A stretch of DNA of 64,000 bases, taken from assembly GCF_014651515.1 (NCBI RefSeq), contig NZ_BMXA01000001.1:1-64000 (forward strand), in the 5' to 3' direction. Source of the DNA: Arenicella chitinivorans (lineage in GTDB: Bacteria > Pseudomonadota > Gammaproteobacteria > Arenicellales > Arenicellaceae). Position numbers and translations under genes: made by a program. Shown one piece after another: positions 3,633 to 50,590 of this stretch. Under the pieces are notes generated by a model. The model was not told the DNA's origin. It saw only the letters and a list, made by a program, of their open reading frames with translations, and did not search any database. Numbering within the stretch: position 1 is the first letter of the stretch; every line of letters begins with the position of its first letter.

Positions 3633-4607
3633 TCAATTCGAGCGAGCGCAATGCATCCGCTTGTAAGTGGCTGGGCTAATACCATACAGCGCTTCAAATG
3701 CCATGCGAAATCCAAGTTCTGACTGATAACCGACTCTGCTGATGACTGTCTTCAGCGCTAGGCCGGATTCAATTAAGTGTTTGGCGTGATATAGGCGTCG
3801 AGTCGTTAAAAATTTCGCGGGTGTTGTACCCAAAGATTCAACGAACTTACGGTGAAAACTGCGTTCACTCATGGCGCATCGGTCTGCCATATCACTGACT
3901 TTGATCGGCAAGTGCATATGTTCGTCTAACCACAGCACAACCTCTGCCAGTGCGGTATCCAGTTTGGCTTGCGCATCCGTTAACTGACTGTATTGCGACT
4001 GATACCCTGGACGATGCACGTACAGCACCAGCCACTTGGCGACATCTCGCATAGTCGCATTGCCTAAATCCCTGCCCACCATGGCGAGTGCCATGTCGAT
4101 GCCCGTGGTGACACCAGCCGAAGTCCAGATGTTGCCATCTACGGTATACAACGCGTCCTGTTCAACGTGGATTTTCGGGTACTCACGCTTAAGGGCACTC
4201 AGGTCGGACCAATGGGTGGTGGCCTTTTTACCTTCTAGGAGTCCTGCGGCGGCGAGAATTAATGCGCCGGAACAAATCGAGCCGAGCCGATCTGCATGCT
4301 TAGAATTCGATTGCAGCCAGTGTTTGAGCGTTGGGTTTTTGCAAGCCGTGTTTATTGCGGCGGGGTCACCACCAACAATTAACAGTGTGTCAGTACTGGA
4401 TAGTTGAATGTCTTGCAGTGCGTTGGCGGACACGGCGATACCCGATCTAGAGTCGATCAGGCCACCAGAGCAGGACACAGTACGGATTGTGTAAACCGCT
4501 TTACCAGCCAGCTTATTGGCCATATGGAACACGGAAGAGGGACCAGATAAATCAAGCAATTCAAACTGCTCAAAAATGACAAAAATAATGTTACGCACTG
4601 TACTCAT
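3633..4607 (-). CDS. GlxA-family AraC-type transcriptional regulator (DJ-1/PfpI + HTH)
   Basis: The N-terminal half is a DJ-1/PfpI (class I glutamine-amidotransferase-like) domain, with the nucleophile-elbow cysteine in GSICSGALILAAAGLL and the following TTHWSDL motif. The C-terminal ~100 residues form a double helix-turn-helix AraC domain (MSERSFHRKF, then RVGYQSELGFRMAFEALYGISPATYK). I chose the start at 4607 (324 residues, MSTVRN) because the family fold begins there; longer starts at 4634 or 4667 are possible. It is divergent from the DJ-1/PfpI gene at 4696, which it probably regulates. The ligand is unknown. Confidence 0.88.
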   Translation of the reverse strand: MSTVRNIIFVIFEQFELLDLSGPSSVFHMANKLAGKAVYTIRTVSCSGGLIDSRSGIAVSANALQDIQLSSTDTLLIVGGDPAAINTACKNPTLKHWLQSNSKHADRLGSICSGALILAAAGLLEGKKATTHWSDLSALKREYPKIHVEQDALYTVDGNIWTSAGVTTGIDMALAMVGRDLGNATMRDVAKWLVLYVHRPGYQSQYSQLTDAQAKLDTALAEVVLWLDEHMHLPIKVSDMADRCAMSERSFHRKFVESLGTTPAKFLTTRRLYHAKHLIESGLALKTVISRVGYQSELGFRMAFEALYGISPATYKRMHCARSN

Positions 4608-4695
4608 TGGCAGAAAATTAACTATATTTGTCATTTCTGTCAAACAGGATTGTCGCACCATGCACATCTCGAATCACCGTAAATGACCTATTGAG

Positions 4696-5286
4696 ATGAA
4701 TATTGGTATCTATATCTACGATCAAGCCGAGGTGATGGACTTTTCAGGCCCTTTCGAAGTGTTCTCTACTGCGAGTAGAGTCTGTTCAGGAGGGCGTCCG
4801 TTTGAGGTGTTTTTAATTGCGGAAGAACCCGACGCAGTCACCGCTCGAGCTGGCTATTGCGTGAGGCCTGAGTTCAGCATTCAAAATCATCCTGCGCTGG
4901 ATGTGCTGGTGGTCGCAGGGGGCGATCACACCCAAGAAATGCACAAGCTACCGGTGTTGAGCTGGGTTCGTGATCAGGCGGCTAAGATAGAGCTCTTGGC
5001 ATCCGTTTGTACTGGCGCCTTTATTTTGGCGGCAGCGGGTTTACTCGATGGTAAAAAGGTGACCACGCACTGGGAAGACATCGATGATTTACGAACGCAA
5101 TTTCCACACCTCGACGTGGTCGAAAACGTACGATGGGTAGAACAAGGTAATTTATTCACTTCAGCAGGTATCTCTGCGGGTATCGATCTGTGTTTGCACA
5201 TCGTAAGTCAGCTAGAGAATAGCGAACTCGCGGAAAAAACGGCGCGACAAATGGACTACCGATGGATTAAAAATCCCGATATCTAG
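4696..5286 (+). CDS. DJ-1/PfpI family protein
   Basis: This 196-residue stand-alone DJ-1/PfpI domain has the cysteine elbow in LASVCTGAFILAAAGLLDG and the TTHWEDI motif, like isonitrile hydratase (InhA) and ThiJ relatives. It has no DNA-binding domain, so an enzymatic role is likely (hydratase, glyoxalase or chaperone type), but the substrate cannot be read from the sequence. It is divergently paired with a two-domain GlxA-like regulator carrying the same N-terminal fold, suggesting that the regulator and enzyme recognise related molecules. The 88-base intergenic gap must contain both promoters. Confidence 0.85.
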   Translation: MNIGIYIYDQAEVMDFSGPFEVFSTASRVCSGGRPFEVFLIAEEPDAVTARAGYCVRPEFSIQNHPALDVLVVAGGDHTQEMHKLPVLSWVRDQAAKIELLASVCTGAFILAAAGLLDGKKVTTHWEDIDDLRTQFPHLDVVENVRWVEQGNLFTSAGISAGIDLCLHIVSQLENSELAEKTARQMDYRWIKNPDI

Positions 5287-5398
5287 GCTGTACAAATCAC
5301 ATTGGCTAGTCGGGAGATGAACTTTTGAACAGAGTCAGTTTATAAACGCCGCTTGAATTCTGCGAATCGTCCGTTCAAGATGCTTGTAAAGCAACTCG

Positions 5399-6313
5399 AT
5401 GACGCCTACCAGCATGAAAAGCTATCTTGTTTCAGTAACGATCAGCAATTGTCTTTTGACGGCTGAAGCTAAGAAAAAATCACCATACATAATCGACAAA
5501 TTTGTAAATCAGTTCGCCTGTATTCTCGCATTGACGGTCAAGGCTGAGAGCACGCGTGACGCAAAGGAGAAGGCCCGCGCGTTTTTAGATACTGAGCCTA
5601 ATTTTAGATCGCTGATCACAAACACACAGGACAACCCCGTCTGTTACGAATTTGACTATGTAAGCAGCTTTGGTGTTGCCAACGAGCCTGCAACCATAAA
5701 AATATCACCCAATTCCCTCTTGTTTTATGACCCGAATGAGAAGGGTGATGAGCCTCATGATCAAGCAGGTATGGCGAGGTTGCCACAAGCCGTCAAATAC
5801 GAAAAAATTTCGAAAGACGAGTTACTAAATAACGGGGAACCAATTTGGAATCCGGTTTTGTGTACCCATATCCAAAATTCAATATCACTCGCTTATGACG
5901 AAAGTGATGCAGACCTAGTTGATGCGCTACCAGAACCGGTAAAGCATTTGTATTACCTTTGGGCCTTTCAGTGTGAGGTTGGCGGAAATGGCATTGACTC
6001 ATTTGTTTTACAAAGGTCAGCGCATGAGATCAAGGGCTGTTACCAAGCCTTACAAATCGTTGGAGACGAGAAGCTAGCAGCAGCCTTAGCGGTTGGTATC
6101 GCGCGGACGATCGAATCCGATGAAGAGGGTCTTGCGGAGTACCGCTACACAGCGAGTGACTTGTCGTGGTTCGATACGTTCAAAGGCAAGTCGAAAGGCC
6201 TAGCGCTGCATAAAATTGACGATGCGTTTGATGTTTTCGAACTTGCGAACGATGCGTTAGATTCCAACATCATTCGCTACATCAAGGCCAATCTCAGTCA
6301 TATTGCTATCTAA
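5399..6313 (+). CDS. DUF4375-like (DMP19-type) protein
   Basis: The protein has 304 residues. Its C-terminal half (about residues 175-300) resembles the DUF4375/DMP19 fold: a YLWAFQCEVGGNGIDSF segment matching the family's W..x.QV.NGGF core, followed by helices with an Ala-rich KLAAALAVGIART run. The N-terminal ~170 residues were not recognised. No signal peptide is evident, so it is probably cytoplasmic. The start is uncertain: neither 5399 nor the in-frame ATG at 5414 has a convincing ribosome binding site. Relatives include a DNA-mimic protein, but that function should not be assumed here. Confidence 0.6.
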   Translation: MTPTSMKSYLVSVTISNCLLTAEAKKKSPYIIDKFVNQFACILALTVKAESTRDAKEKARAFLDTEPNFRSLITNTQDNPVCYEFDYVSSFGVANEPATIKISPNSLLFYDPNEKGDEPHDQAGMARLPQAVKYEKISKDELLNNGEPIWNPVLCTHIQNSISLAYDESDADLVDALPEPVKHLYYLWAFQCEVGGNGIDSFVLQRSAHEIKGCYQALQIVGDEKLAAALAVGIARTIESDEEGLAEYRYTASDLSWFDTFKGKSKGLALHKIDDAFDVFELANDALDSNIIRYIKANLSHIAI

Positions 6314-38626: not shown

Positions 38627-40306
38627 TTAATCCCATCGGAAATTGACGCGGTCAGCACGCAAAGCGTTTAGCCAGAGCTCAAGCGACAGACAGTTTAACA
38701 AAAGCATCGAATAATCTGATTGCGAAGCGCTTAGGGCGTTTTCGACTGTGTGTCGAGCAACAAACCGTGGCCAGCTGGCAGCGGGGTCTGACAGCACTTC
38801 ACGGATGGTGTCGAGGTTGTGATTCCAGCCATCGTCGTAGTAACGACGCAAAACCCCAACGCGACCACGCCGTCGCATTGCTGCTGGAGCCAGGTCAGCC
38901 AACGCGGTTCTCAGAATTGCCTTGTCGTAGATCGGTGAGTGCGCTTGATATGCTGGTGTCAGCAGGCCCTGCTCAATCAAGGATGGGTGAATGCAGGGGT
39001 GCACGCGCTGTAGGCCGCGAGGGGCGGTGTGCGGTCGTTCGTTTTCCTGCGCGTTTAGATGACTACTCTGAAACAGAAAGGCACGATGATATTGGCTCTC
39101 AATTGGAATTGCTGGGCTGGAGGTGTAGGGCGACGTTAAGTTGCCAGTTTTGTTTCCGAGTATGTAATCGGGATAGCGCATGGCGCGCGGCTGGCGGTGC
39201 AGAATCGCGTTAAGCCAAGTTTTATGCACGTGTGGAATTTGTCGTGCACGGCGTGAACACAGCGTGCTGACAAACGCGCCCATTTGCCGATGCTGCCAGA
39301 GGTCTCGCAATAAGTTACGCTTGGGTGCAAAAAGTTCGTCGCCACCGGTCCCGAACCATATTTGTTTTAACTCCTGTTCGGCGGCTAACTCATACCCTTG
39401 ATTGATCATCGCTTGATACGGGTTAATTCCTGGCGCTAGTAAGTTGACCGGCATATTCAATAAACCATCAAAGCAGTGCGATCGTACATCCACACGGTGG
39501 ATGGGCAGTCCCAGTTCTTTGCTTAAATGTTCTGCATACGCCCACTCATCTTCATCTGGAAAATCTGGCAGCGAAAGGTTAATGGTTTCCAAAGGAATCT
39601 GTTGCTGGTGAGCGGCGACGGCAAGCGCTCCTGAATCCAGGCCACCACTGAGAAACAATCCGACGGTATTGGTCAATGCGCTCGCGTCCCGTGTGGCGTC
39701 CAGATAGGCTTGTTGCCATTGGCGCGCGACGGACTTCGTCTCGCGCGGAACTGGCACGCTATTTGCCATGGGATCGAACTGTGGTAAGCAGTGAATTTGC
39801 TTATTCGATAGCTTCAACGCTTGACCGGCGGGCACGGCATACAAGCTATGAAAGAAGCCGGCGTCCATAGCTGGTATGGAATAGGCTAGGTAATGCCGCA
39901 CCGCTTCGGAATTGATTGACACGGCTGAGGTGGCCGTGCGCAGTAGTTGGGTGGCATCGGTACTGATAGTCAGACCGTCTCGATCATTTCGGTAATAAAG
40001 CCCCGGAGAGTCGTATACGCCTCGAAACAGAAAAATGGCGTCTGCATCGACAATGATTGCTATATAGGCGCCTTCGACATGGTGATGGGTTTCGGCTCCC
40101 CACTTCTGGAAGGCGTGAAGCAGCAGTGTTTGGTCGTCGAGGTCGTTGTTAGCACAGTCAAGTGACGTGCTAAGTGCCACGCGTCGAAGTAAGCGGCCGG
40201 AGAACAAAACAATGTGTGGTGTTGGCCGGCTGCGTTGTGGACCGATAACAGAAACTTGGTTGGGACCAATTAATCGAATGTTCCAATTAGGCGTTCTCGG
40301 CTGCAA
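38627..40306 (-). CDS. Asparagine-synthetase-like lasso peptide cyclase
   Basis: The protein has 559 residues. The N-terminal Ntn-hydrolase-like domain (about 1-170) lacks the catalytic Cys2 of true asparagine synthetase, so glutaminase activity is not expected. The C-terminal synthetase domain has the ATP pyrophosphatase loop SGGLDS at 220-225, GTGGDELFA and a late YDKAIL..RRRGRVG region. This is the make-up of lasso C proteins, which adenylate an Asp/Glu side chain in the precursor core to form the macrolactam. The apparent start is TTG at 40306, 12 nt after the precursor stop, so translation is probably coupled. Without the precursor it would be called asparagine synthase-related. Confidence 0.82.
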   Translation of the reverse strand: MQPRTPNWNIRLIGPNQVSVIGPQRSRPTPHIVLFSGRLLRRVALSTSLDCANNDLDDQTLLLHAFQKWGAETHHHVEGAYIAIIVDADAIFLFRGVYDSPGLYYRNDRDGLTISTDATQLLRTATSAVSINSEAVRHYLAYSIPAMDAGFFHSLYAVPAGQALKLSNKQIHCLPQFDPMANSVPVPRETKSVARQWQQAYLDATRDASALTNTVGLFLSGGLDSGALAVAAHQQQIPLETINLSLPDFPDEDEWAYAEHLSKELGLPIHRVDVRSHCFDGLLNMPVNLLAPGINPYQAMINQGYELAAEQELKQIWFGTGGDELFAPKRNLLRDLWQHRQMGAFVSTLCSRRARQIPHVHKTWLNAILHRQPRAMRYPDYILGNKTGNLTSPYTSSPAIPIESQYHRAFLFQSSHLNAQENERPHTAPRGLQRVHPCIHPSLIEQGLLTPAYQAHSPIYDKAILRTALADLAPAAMRRRGRVGVLRRYYDDGWNHNLDTIREVLSDPAASWPRFVARHTVENALSASQSDYSMLLLNCLSLELWLNALRADRVNFRWD

Positions 40307-40318
40307 AATGCGGCTCGA

Positions 40319-40438
40319 TTAGGTATTCCGACGATTTGAACCAGGGACACCCGGGTCGCCTGGGTTGAGGCTTCCACCTAAAGTGGTGTCGCGTACATCA
40401 CCGTAATGAATTAAACGTGGTTTGGTGTATTTCGCCAT
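40319..40438 (-). CDS. Lasso-peptide-like RiPP precursor
   Basis: This 39-residue peptide starts at ATG 40438 (a longer frame from 40528 adds 30 hydrophilic residues). The leader MAKYTKPRLIHYGDVRDTTL carries the YxxPxL leader motif recognised by lasso RRE proteins, a following YGDVRD segment and Thr at -2. The predicted core is GGSLNPGDPGVPGSNRRNT: Gly1 and Asp8 are correctly placed for an 8-residue macrolactam ring, leaving an 11-residue tail with Arg16 and Arg17 as possible plugs. If cleavage is one residue earlier, Leu1-Asp9 would give a 9-ring. It is directly followed by the cyclase gene. Confidence 0.75.
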   Translation of the reverse strand: MAKYTKPRLIHYGDVRDTTLGGSLNPGDPGVPGSNRRNT

Positions 40439-40589
40439 TGGCGTTTCATCGCGGGTGCGATCAACATTAGCGTGTTTGTTGAAAGTGGGGCTAAACCGGA
40501 TGGACGTGTTGGCGCTGGATTTTCTCATCTGTTGGCGGCTAGGTGAGGTTGGGTTTGGGTGAACGATTTTTAGAGCATTGGGGCAGGTT

Positions 40590-49754: not shown

Positions 49755-50002
49755 TCATCTACTCCATCCGAGCTGCTGCCCCGTATAGCACTCATTGGTT
49801 TCTGTGAGCGAGCACAATTCATTCAAATGGATGAGGCCGAATGGCCCGTTGGGCATATCACCTACTTTTGATACGTTTATGTTGCGCTAAGCATCACATT
49901 TACGAGCCGTAGTAGCGCAAGGAACCTTGGTGCGCAACCACCGTACGAATGCTCTGTGTACGCGCAGCTAGGATAGATATTTCCATTTCAGAGGATTCAA
50001 TT

Positions 50003-50590
50003 ATGTGTGTCAATAAATCCGCCAGAATGACTCTGGCGACCTGTCTAACGATGTTAACCATGCTGCTGGTGTGCAGCGCGCACGCCAACGACAACCAAGC
50101 AACCTTCGATTTTGGGCGCTTGAAATTAAATGAGGGAACCAAGCTCGAAACGTTTCTGGCGAAAGTCACCGAACATGAGGAGAAAAACAGTCTTTTGCCT
50201 TCTGCGCGTGAAGACCTAGTCGCGCTCTTCAAGCAATATGACTTTGACCAAAATGGCGAGCTTAATGCCACGGAAATGCTTGTTGGTTGTATGAAGCCAC
50301 TCACCGCAGAACAGGTTGAGGCGTATAAGGCCGGAAAGAAGAAAAAAGGTGGCGGCGGGGGTAAAGTCCCAGGTCCAATCGAGACTGGTTGCACGGGCAC
50401 TTGCAATTGTGACTATATCGGCGGCATCGGCGGCACAGATAGTCCAGGCGAGATTGGAACACCTGGTGATGGTCAAAATACTCAAGGGTTTGGCAATTCC
50501 CAAGGTAGCAATCAATTATGCGTTGCCGCAGGCGATGCTAACTGTCACTGCCACTGCAATACGGGTGTTTGTGCCGCTGGCGGCACTTGA
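50003..50590 (+). CDS. Secreted EF-hand, Cys-rich protein
   Basis: The protein has 195 residues from ATG 50003, decided by AGAGGATT upstream; a frame from 49949 would extend it without a signal. Signal peptide ends near AHAND (about residue 29). An EF-hand loop DFDQNGELNATE (about residue 92) suggests Ca2+ binding. Downstream are a Lys/Gly-rich stretch (KKKKGGGGGK), Gly-rich sequence with GTGCTG-type codons and a Cys-rich end (CTGTCNC, CHCHCNTGVC) that could bind metal or form disulfides. Function unknown. A small secreted protein family with this make-up was not recognised. Confidence 0.72.
   Translation: MCVNKSARMTLATCLTMLTMLLVCSAHANDNQATFDFGRLKLNEGTKLETFLAKVTEHEEKNSLLPSAREDLVALFKQYDFDQNGELNATEMLVGCMKPLTAEQVEAYKAGKKKKGGGGGKVPGPIETGCTGTCNCDYIGGIGGTDSPGEIGTPGDGQNTQGFGNSQGSNQLCVAAGDANCHCHCNTGVCAAGGT

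Follow-up and report, generated by a model that had tools for sequence, protein, structure and literature searches.

The window analysed here, a 64,000-nt stretch of the Arenicella chitinivorans genome (G000; 4.03 Mb, 17 contigs, 99.6% complete), contains a lasso peptide precursor gene (A1) followed directly by a cyclase gene (C1), which raises the question of how a peptide could mature from a two-gene locus. An earlier note on this DNA had found the pair standing alone and had offered two answers, namely that the leader-binding protein (B1) and the leader peptidase (B2) act in trans from elsewhere or that another peptidase replaces them. The observation itself was confirmed: genome-wide searches with PqqD (PF05402) and Transglut_core3 (PF13471) placed nothing in positions 1–64,000. 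In the accessible parts of PMC8498205, PMC9266682, PMC7533575 and PMC13381572, lasso genes are described as clustered, with kinase and nucleotidyltransferase genes inside the clusters. Judging from the comparisons below, we consider it likely that A1-C1 belongs as one cassette to a lasso pathway with its remaining genes dispersed through the genome. The comparison set comprised 119 relatives of G000 across the order, and the genus set comprised G000 and 17 other members (18 genomes); the 18 genus precursors include A1 and the precursor A2 of a second pair in G000 (A2-C2), and are partly dependent in that the cores of G007 and G010 are identical. The lasso-leader model NF033521 detected leaders in 31 of the 119 relatives, 15 of them in the genus, and B2 was found in 38, including 16 of the 17 other genus members. 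Locations elsewhere in G000 are given as contig coordinates (C1:, C2: or C7: followed by a number); otherwise C1 and C2 denote the cyclases of the two pairs, and B1_1 and B1_2 the two PqqD genes.

The minus-strand ORF ending at 40319 (MAKYTKPRLIHYGDVRDTTLGGSLNPGDPGVPGSNRRNT; 40319..40528, 69 aa plus stop, probably the full gene) matched the curated NCBIfam lasso-leader model NF033521 with 19.8 bits against a cut-off of 19, a narrow pass by 0.8 bits, and a search of the whole genome up to E 5 returned two matches to this model, each adjoining a cyclase without Cys2. The precursor had been described as 39 residues long, counted from the ATG at 40438. That length was probably too short: in G006, a genus relative (82% complete; contig JAUHZM010000090.1 of a Gammaproteobacteria metagenome assembly), ATG, GTG and TTG are all absent at the 39-aa position, while the two genomes share an ATG 34 codons 5′ of the leader Tyr, and the start is therefore probably the ATG at 40528. 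By eye, no obvious Shine-Dalgarno sequence preceded either ATG. The end of the leader (residues −17 to −1; 40379..40429, minus strand) carries Tyr-17, Pro-14 and Leu-12 of the B1 binding motif YxxPxL, the same recognition positions as those given in the accessible part of PMC10368454, as well as Thr-2. The 19-aa core GGSLNPGDPGVPGSNRRNT (40322..40378, minus strand) starts with Gly1 and has its acidic residue, Asp8, within core positions 7–9, predicting a Gly1-Asp8 ring; Ser3 is a candidate phosphorylation site.

The cyclase gene (38627..40306, minus strand; 559 aa from a TTG start) begins 12 nt after the precursor stop and, as had been read from the sequence, lacks Cys2 and keeps the SGGLDS ATP-binding motif (residues 220–225; 39632..39649, minus strand), of which S220, G221, G222, D224 and S225 were invariant in an alignment of 17 lasso-type cyclases. 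Its Asn_synthase domain (PF00733) scored 82.8 bits, and the shortened amidotransferase-like N-terminal part reached a sub-threshold 20.4 bits with GATase_7 (cut-off 25). Foldseek (best E 5.3e-18) matched an AlphaFold2 model of C1, built from a 17-row alignment (pLDDT 82, pTM 0.83), to the fold of the hydroxyamidotransferase TsnB9, of beta-lactam synthetase and of asparagine synthetase B. The lasso-cyclase model NF033535 gave C1 74.8 bits, far under its cut-off of 525, a threshold that is uninformative in this order because none of the 119 relatives reached it, the cyclases of complete clusters included. C1 sits on a long branch and is 20% identical to the other lasso cyclases. Where C2 and many others have the Lys of a K[TA] stretch, C1 and its G006 homologue read RRRGRVG, with Arg in place of the conserved Lys, which is also absent from the cyclases at L055, L058 and L059. 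This Lys lies near the active site and has a catalytic role in beta-lactam synthetase. C1 is of the lasso type, has a shortened N-terminal domain and lacks a Lys retained in its relatives.

Phylogeny placed C1 among cyclases that adjoin precursors. Of the 65 rows in one tree, the 27 asparagine-synthetase-like ones with Cys2 formed a clade of their own (100/100), and C1 and its G006 homologue fell with 21 others into a clade (100/99) in which 20 of the 23 rows are precursor-linked. The nearest cyclase was that of G074 (95/91), whose precursor also has Asp8, a placement for which the program warned of long branches around C1 and G074. Without this neighbour, a 33-row tree again put C1 in a precursor-linked clade (99/96, 16 rows), with no settled position inside it, and the 8 Cys2 rows again stood apart (100/100). 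Without Cys2 and outside the Cys2 clade in both trees, C1 was rejected as a true asparagine synthetase. Adjacency to a precursor, the ATP motif and the loss of Cys2 in an asparagine-synthetase-like protein that groups with precursor-linked cyclases instead indicated a lasso-type enzyme; the precursor-cyclase pair that had been proposed is real. It is unlikely that C1 closes an unthreaded macrolactam or performs some other amidation, giving a product that is not a lasso: C1 is the most divergent cyclase of the set and threading is invisible from sequence, but the Gly1-Asp8 geometry and the position inside the precursor-linked clade, kept after removal of the long-branch neighbour, speak for a lasso cyclase.

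The A1-C1 cassette was found in G000 and G006 only, at the same chromosomal place and with the same neighbours on both sides; the two genomes are about 77% identical in nucleotides along one flank and 76% over the side with the cyclase. The A1 cores share 18 of 19 residues and differ by 12.5 synonymous and 3.5 non-synonymous substitutions, and C1 is 66% identical to its homologue (dN 0.23, dS 1.81; dN/dS about 0.13). By these rates, A1-C1 is kept in place under purifying selection in G006. Beyond the G006 contig (66%) and a 23% Actinoplanes match, a scan of genome contigs returned no other close relatives of C1. That the pair is a decaying cassette whose peptide is no longer made is very unlikely. 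The TTG start, the shortened N-terminal domain, the missing conserved Lys, the long branch and the restriction to two genomes could all be taken as signs of decay; against it, the frames are open, the TTG start is kept in both genomes, the ratio for C1 is low, and the core is nearly frozen while synonymous change is saturated.

Searching the whole genome for unlinked B genes, as the earlier note had suggested, located both kinds. A stand-alone B2 of 141 aa lies at C2:177432 between gspC and mgtE (NF033537, 60 bits, cut-off 33; PF13471, 67.1 bits, cut-off 26); it belongs to the transglutaminase-like family and has the catalytic Cys and His, whose columns were invariant in all 38 aligned B2s. 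A second Transglut_core3 match, at C1:92950, was set aside as a B2 candidate, being below the cut-off (20.8 bits) in a 270-aa ORF beside two proteins that do not look lasso-related. Two PqqD genes exceeded the Pfam cut-off (23.4 bits), each accompanied by an NTP_transf_5 nucleotidyltransferase and an HPr-kinase-like gene, and both stayed under the lasso PqqD cut-offs of NCBIfam (best 43.8 of 70). B1_2, at C1:989267 (PF05402, 37.6–37.8 bits), is PqqD-like and related to known lasso B1 proteins of the RRE type, matching TbiB1 (5v1u) with E 3.1e-10 and TfuB1 (6jx3) with E 6.6e-6. Both testable outcomes that the earlier note had said would count against it turned out the other way, since an RRE protein and a B2 exist in the genome and C1 falls outside the Cys2 clade; its interpretation was supported.

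The other PqqD gene, B1_1, lies at C7:118484 (L014:3792-6066). It could be imagined to bind the leader in place of B1_2, as it too encodes a PqqD-fold protein beside a kinase and a nucleotidyltransferase, and its PF05402 score (46.1 bits) is above that of B1_2. We regard this as improbable: the neighbouring kinase is HprK_rel_A-like with a motif ending in DE rather than DD, the best NCBIfam PqqD match of B1_1 is the PQQ model TIGR03859 (below cut-off), compared with a lasso PqqD model for B1_2, and B1_1 occurs in at least 7 of the 18 genus genomes among the loci fetched. A B1_2-like gene was present in all 18, accompanied by the nucleotidyltransferase in 17 genomes and by the kinase in 16. B1_2 is therefore the B1 meant in what follows.

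The second cassette, A2-C2 (C2:733–735 kb; L018:5941-6147 and 4076-5944), consists of a precursor with a lasso leader and the core GPTLGGGESGCEGVFRVGPGGCPIP and a cyclase without Cys2 that overlaps the A2 start. It lies downstream of a TonB receptor gene, and the genome-wide searches found no PqqD or B2 near it. The parts of the pathway thus occupy five places, namely A1-C1, A2-C2, B2, B1_2 with its kinase and nucleotidyltransferase, and B1_1 with its own pair, and B1 and B2 are hundreds of kb from A1 or on other contigs, so that together they do not form a lasso gene cluster. Contig breaks were rejected as the cause of the scattering in G000: the contig with A1 measures 1.2 Mb and A1 lies 40 kb inside it, and A2 and B2 are 558 kb apart on one contig. 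Breaks were also excluded for the gspC-flanked B2s, while several A-C loci of relatives are near contig ends. With a B2 and two PqqD-type B1 genes present in the genome, action in trans is the better and simpler of the two answers; the substitute peptidase that had been offered alongside it would not be needed, as B2 was found elsewhere in the genome.

The lack of nearby B genes proved to extend across the genus and is not peculiar to this locus. B2 was within 15 kb of the precursor in 0 of 18 cases in the genus, versus 12 of 22 for the remainder of the order; of the ten remaining order-level precursors, one had B2 at 18.8 kb and nine had it on other contigs, many of them near a contig end, which leaves scattering in those nine ambiguous. 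Seventeen of the 18 genus precursors are in genomes with B2; the exception is G016 (81% complete, with its B1_2 contig cut), where neither B2 nor gspC was detected. The gspC-side B2 was intact in 13 of the 18 genomes, with mgtE on its other side in 12 and only gspC and lnt beside it in G013. It is lost from G003 and G012, where the gap between mgtE and gspC measured only 316 and 255 nt, and in G002, where mgtE is outside the stretch examined, no gspC-side B2 was seen. In G007, a tblastn match between gspC and mgtE (L234:2319-2822) was ruled out as an intact B2 by four in-frame stops; it is a decayed remnant without an open frame over 97 codons. Each of these four genomes (G002, G003, G007 and G012) keeps another B2 elsewhere, so a B2 seems to be needed.

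The leaders point to a shared set of enzymes. Tyr-17, Pro-14, Leu-12, Thr-2 and Gly1 stand at identical spacing in all 18 genus precursors, and leader residues −9 to −1 nearly always read YGDVRDxTL before G1; both the leader motif and the Gly1 and Asp8 that fit an 8-residue ring had been noticed correctly in A1. Residue 8 is acidic throughout (Glu in 16; Asp in A1 and its G006 homologue), and Ser or Thr occupies position 3 in every one of the 18. The common spacing and YGDVRDxTLG fit one B1/B2 set reading all genus leaders. Alternatively, A1-C1 could work without the scattered B genes, with an unrelated peptidase removing the leader and B1 and B2 serving A2 or something else. Both B genes are indeed distant, no precursor was detected in G001 and G013 although these genomes carry B1 and B2, for which reason the two might have another use, and pseudomycoidin reportedly forms without leader and leader peptidase. 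Still, A1 retains Y-17, P-14, L-12 and T-2 at the spacing of A2 and of the remaining precursors, which such a route would make superfluous, and we judge it quite unlikely.

Complete clusters within the same order (G053, G060, G068 and G044) contain the same parts, A, C, B1, B2, kinase-like and nucleotidyltransferase genes, within about 15 kb, whereas in the genus of the window they occupy four or five separate places; some complete order clusters also have GxSxGxxESG-type precursors. Among 17 order-level loci, B1 and B2 were adjacent in 9, of which 7 also hold A and C and thus unite B2, B1, a kinase-like gene, A and C in a single locus, with kinase-like and nucleotidyltransferase genes in most. 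A gspC-like gene was present in 5 of the 17, and in G026 it adjoins B1-B2 in divergent orientation, the same position that gspC has next to the lone genus B2. From this arrangement we infer that the gspC-side site of B2 is the old one, where B2 stayed, and that B1 and the A-C cassettes have relocated.

With the scattered genes acting in trans, the stand-alone RRE protein B1 (C1:989267) would bind the YxxPxL leader of A1, and the stand-alone B2 cysteine peptidase (C2:177432) would cut after Leu-1, guided by Thr-2. C1 would then use ATP to activate the side chain of Asp8 and link it to Gly1, giving an 8-residue ring around the tail. The kinase beside B1_2 would probably phosphorylate Ser3 first, with possible decoration by the adjacent nucleotidyltransferase. 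A2-C2 would be served by the same B1 and B2. The sequence itself establishes the genes and how they are scattered, the common leader, the conservation of the core and the intactness of the Cys/His and kinase motifs, whereas action of the scattered proteins on A1, ring closure, threading and phosphorylation are inferred. The kinase motif H..GxGKS..DD occurred in 15 of the 17 loci scanned and is intact in the kinase beside B1_2. Together with the universal Ser/Thr3, this motif, reported in Bradymonas, leads us to predict phosphorylation of A1 at Ser3.

The closest likeness is the bsf cluster of Bradymonas sediminis, in which, according to the accessible text of PMC10368454, BsfK phosphorylates core Ser3 with the help of BsfB1. 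It shares with the present system separate B1 and B2 proteins, YxxPxL at −17/−14/−12, a Gly1-Asp8 ring, a kinase (K) and an N gene, and its kinase motif H..G..GxGKS..DD is also found in the kinase beside B1_2; the bsf genes are, however, clustered and residue −2 is Ile, compared with scattered genes and Thr here. The paeninodin and pseudomycoidin clusters, as far as described in the available portions of PMC9266682 and PMC8498205, likewise combine HPr-kinase-like and nucleotidyltransferase genes with lasso B1/B2, but they are clustered and their kinase modifies a C-terminal Ser, whereas none of the present cores has Ser at its end. A remote lasso enzyme has a parallel in the citrulassin peptidylarginine deiminase, encoded outside the local cluster; in the part of PMC8498205 at hand only this optional tailoring enzyme is remote, while in the present system it is B1 and B2, which are essential. 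Scattering of RiPP genes in general is already known: unclustered lanthipeptide proteases, described in the accessible section of PMC8960859, are leader proteases encoded away from their precursors, though of another RiPP class and another protease type. Our literature search, with thin coverage of subscription journals, found no report of unclustered or scattered lasso B genes.

A two-gene locus whose further enzymes appear to be encoded far off is common to this genus of environmental bacteria and unusual for a pathway that is normally clustered. We also propose, with about even confidence, that the genus core genome is organized as a hub and spokes, the fixed gspC-side B2 and the B1-kinase-nucleotidyltransferase trio serving the one or two cassettes of each strain to make a Ser/Thr3-phosphorylated ring. 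Under this scheme a two-gene cassette would suffice for a new peptide, a single B1/B2 set may handle several precursors, and cluster-based mining would overlook such loci or record them as incomplete. Both the discovery and the ranking of lasso pathways rely on gene clustering; if the genus-wide scattering holds, two-gene loci elsewhere that look incomplete may be functional, and the natural sets would allow direct tests of B1/B2 promiscuity and of phosphorylation at core residue 3.

Several minor observations accompanied this analysis. The B1_1 locus is kept in several genus members. Cys2-less cyclase-like genes beside PqqD genes occur at L212 (G002:C33), L217 (G005:C3), L230 (G007:C27) and L229 (G018:C53); the four form one clade, B2 is nearby in some, and no NF033521 leader was detected near them, making another RiPP or lasso-like system possible. 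A lasso-cyclase-like match in G036 (C80:66054-67262) contains one in-frame TAG. Within the window, the ORF list includes a secreted-looking protein at 49949-50590 with a Gly- and Cys-rich C-terminal tail.
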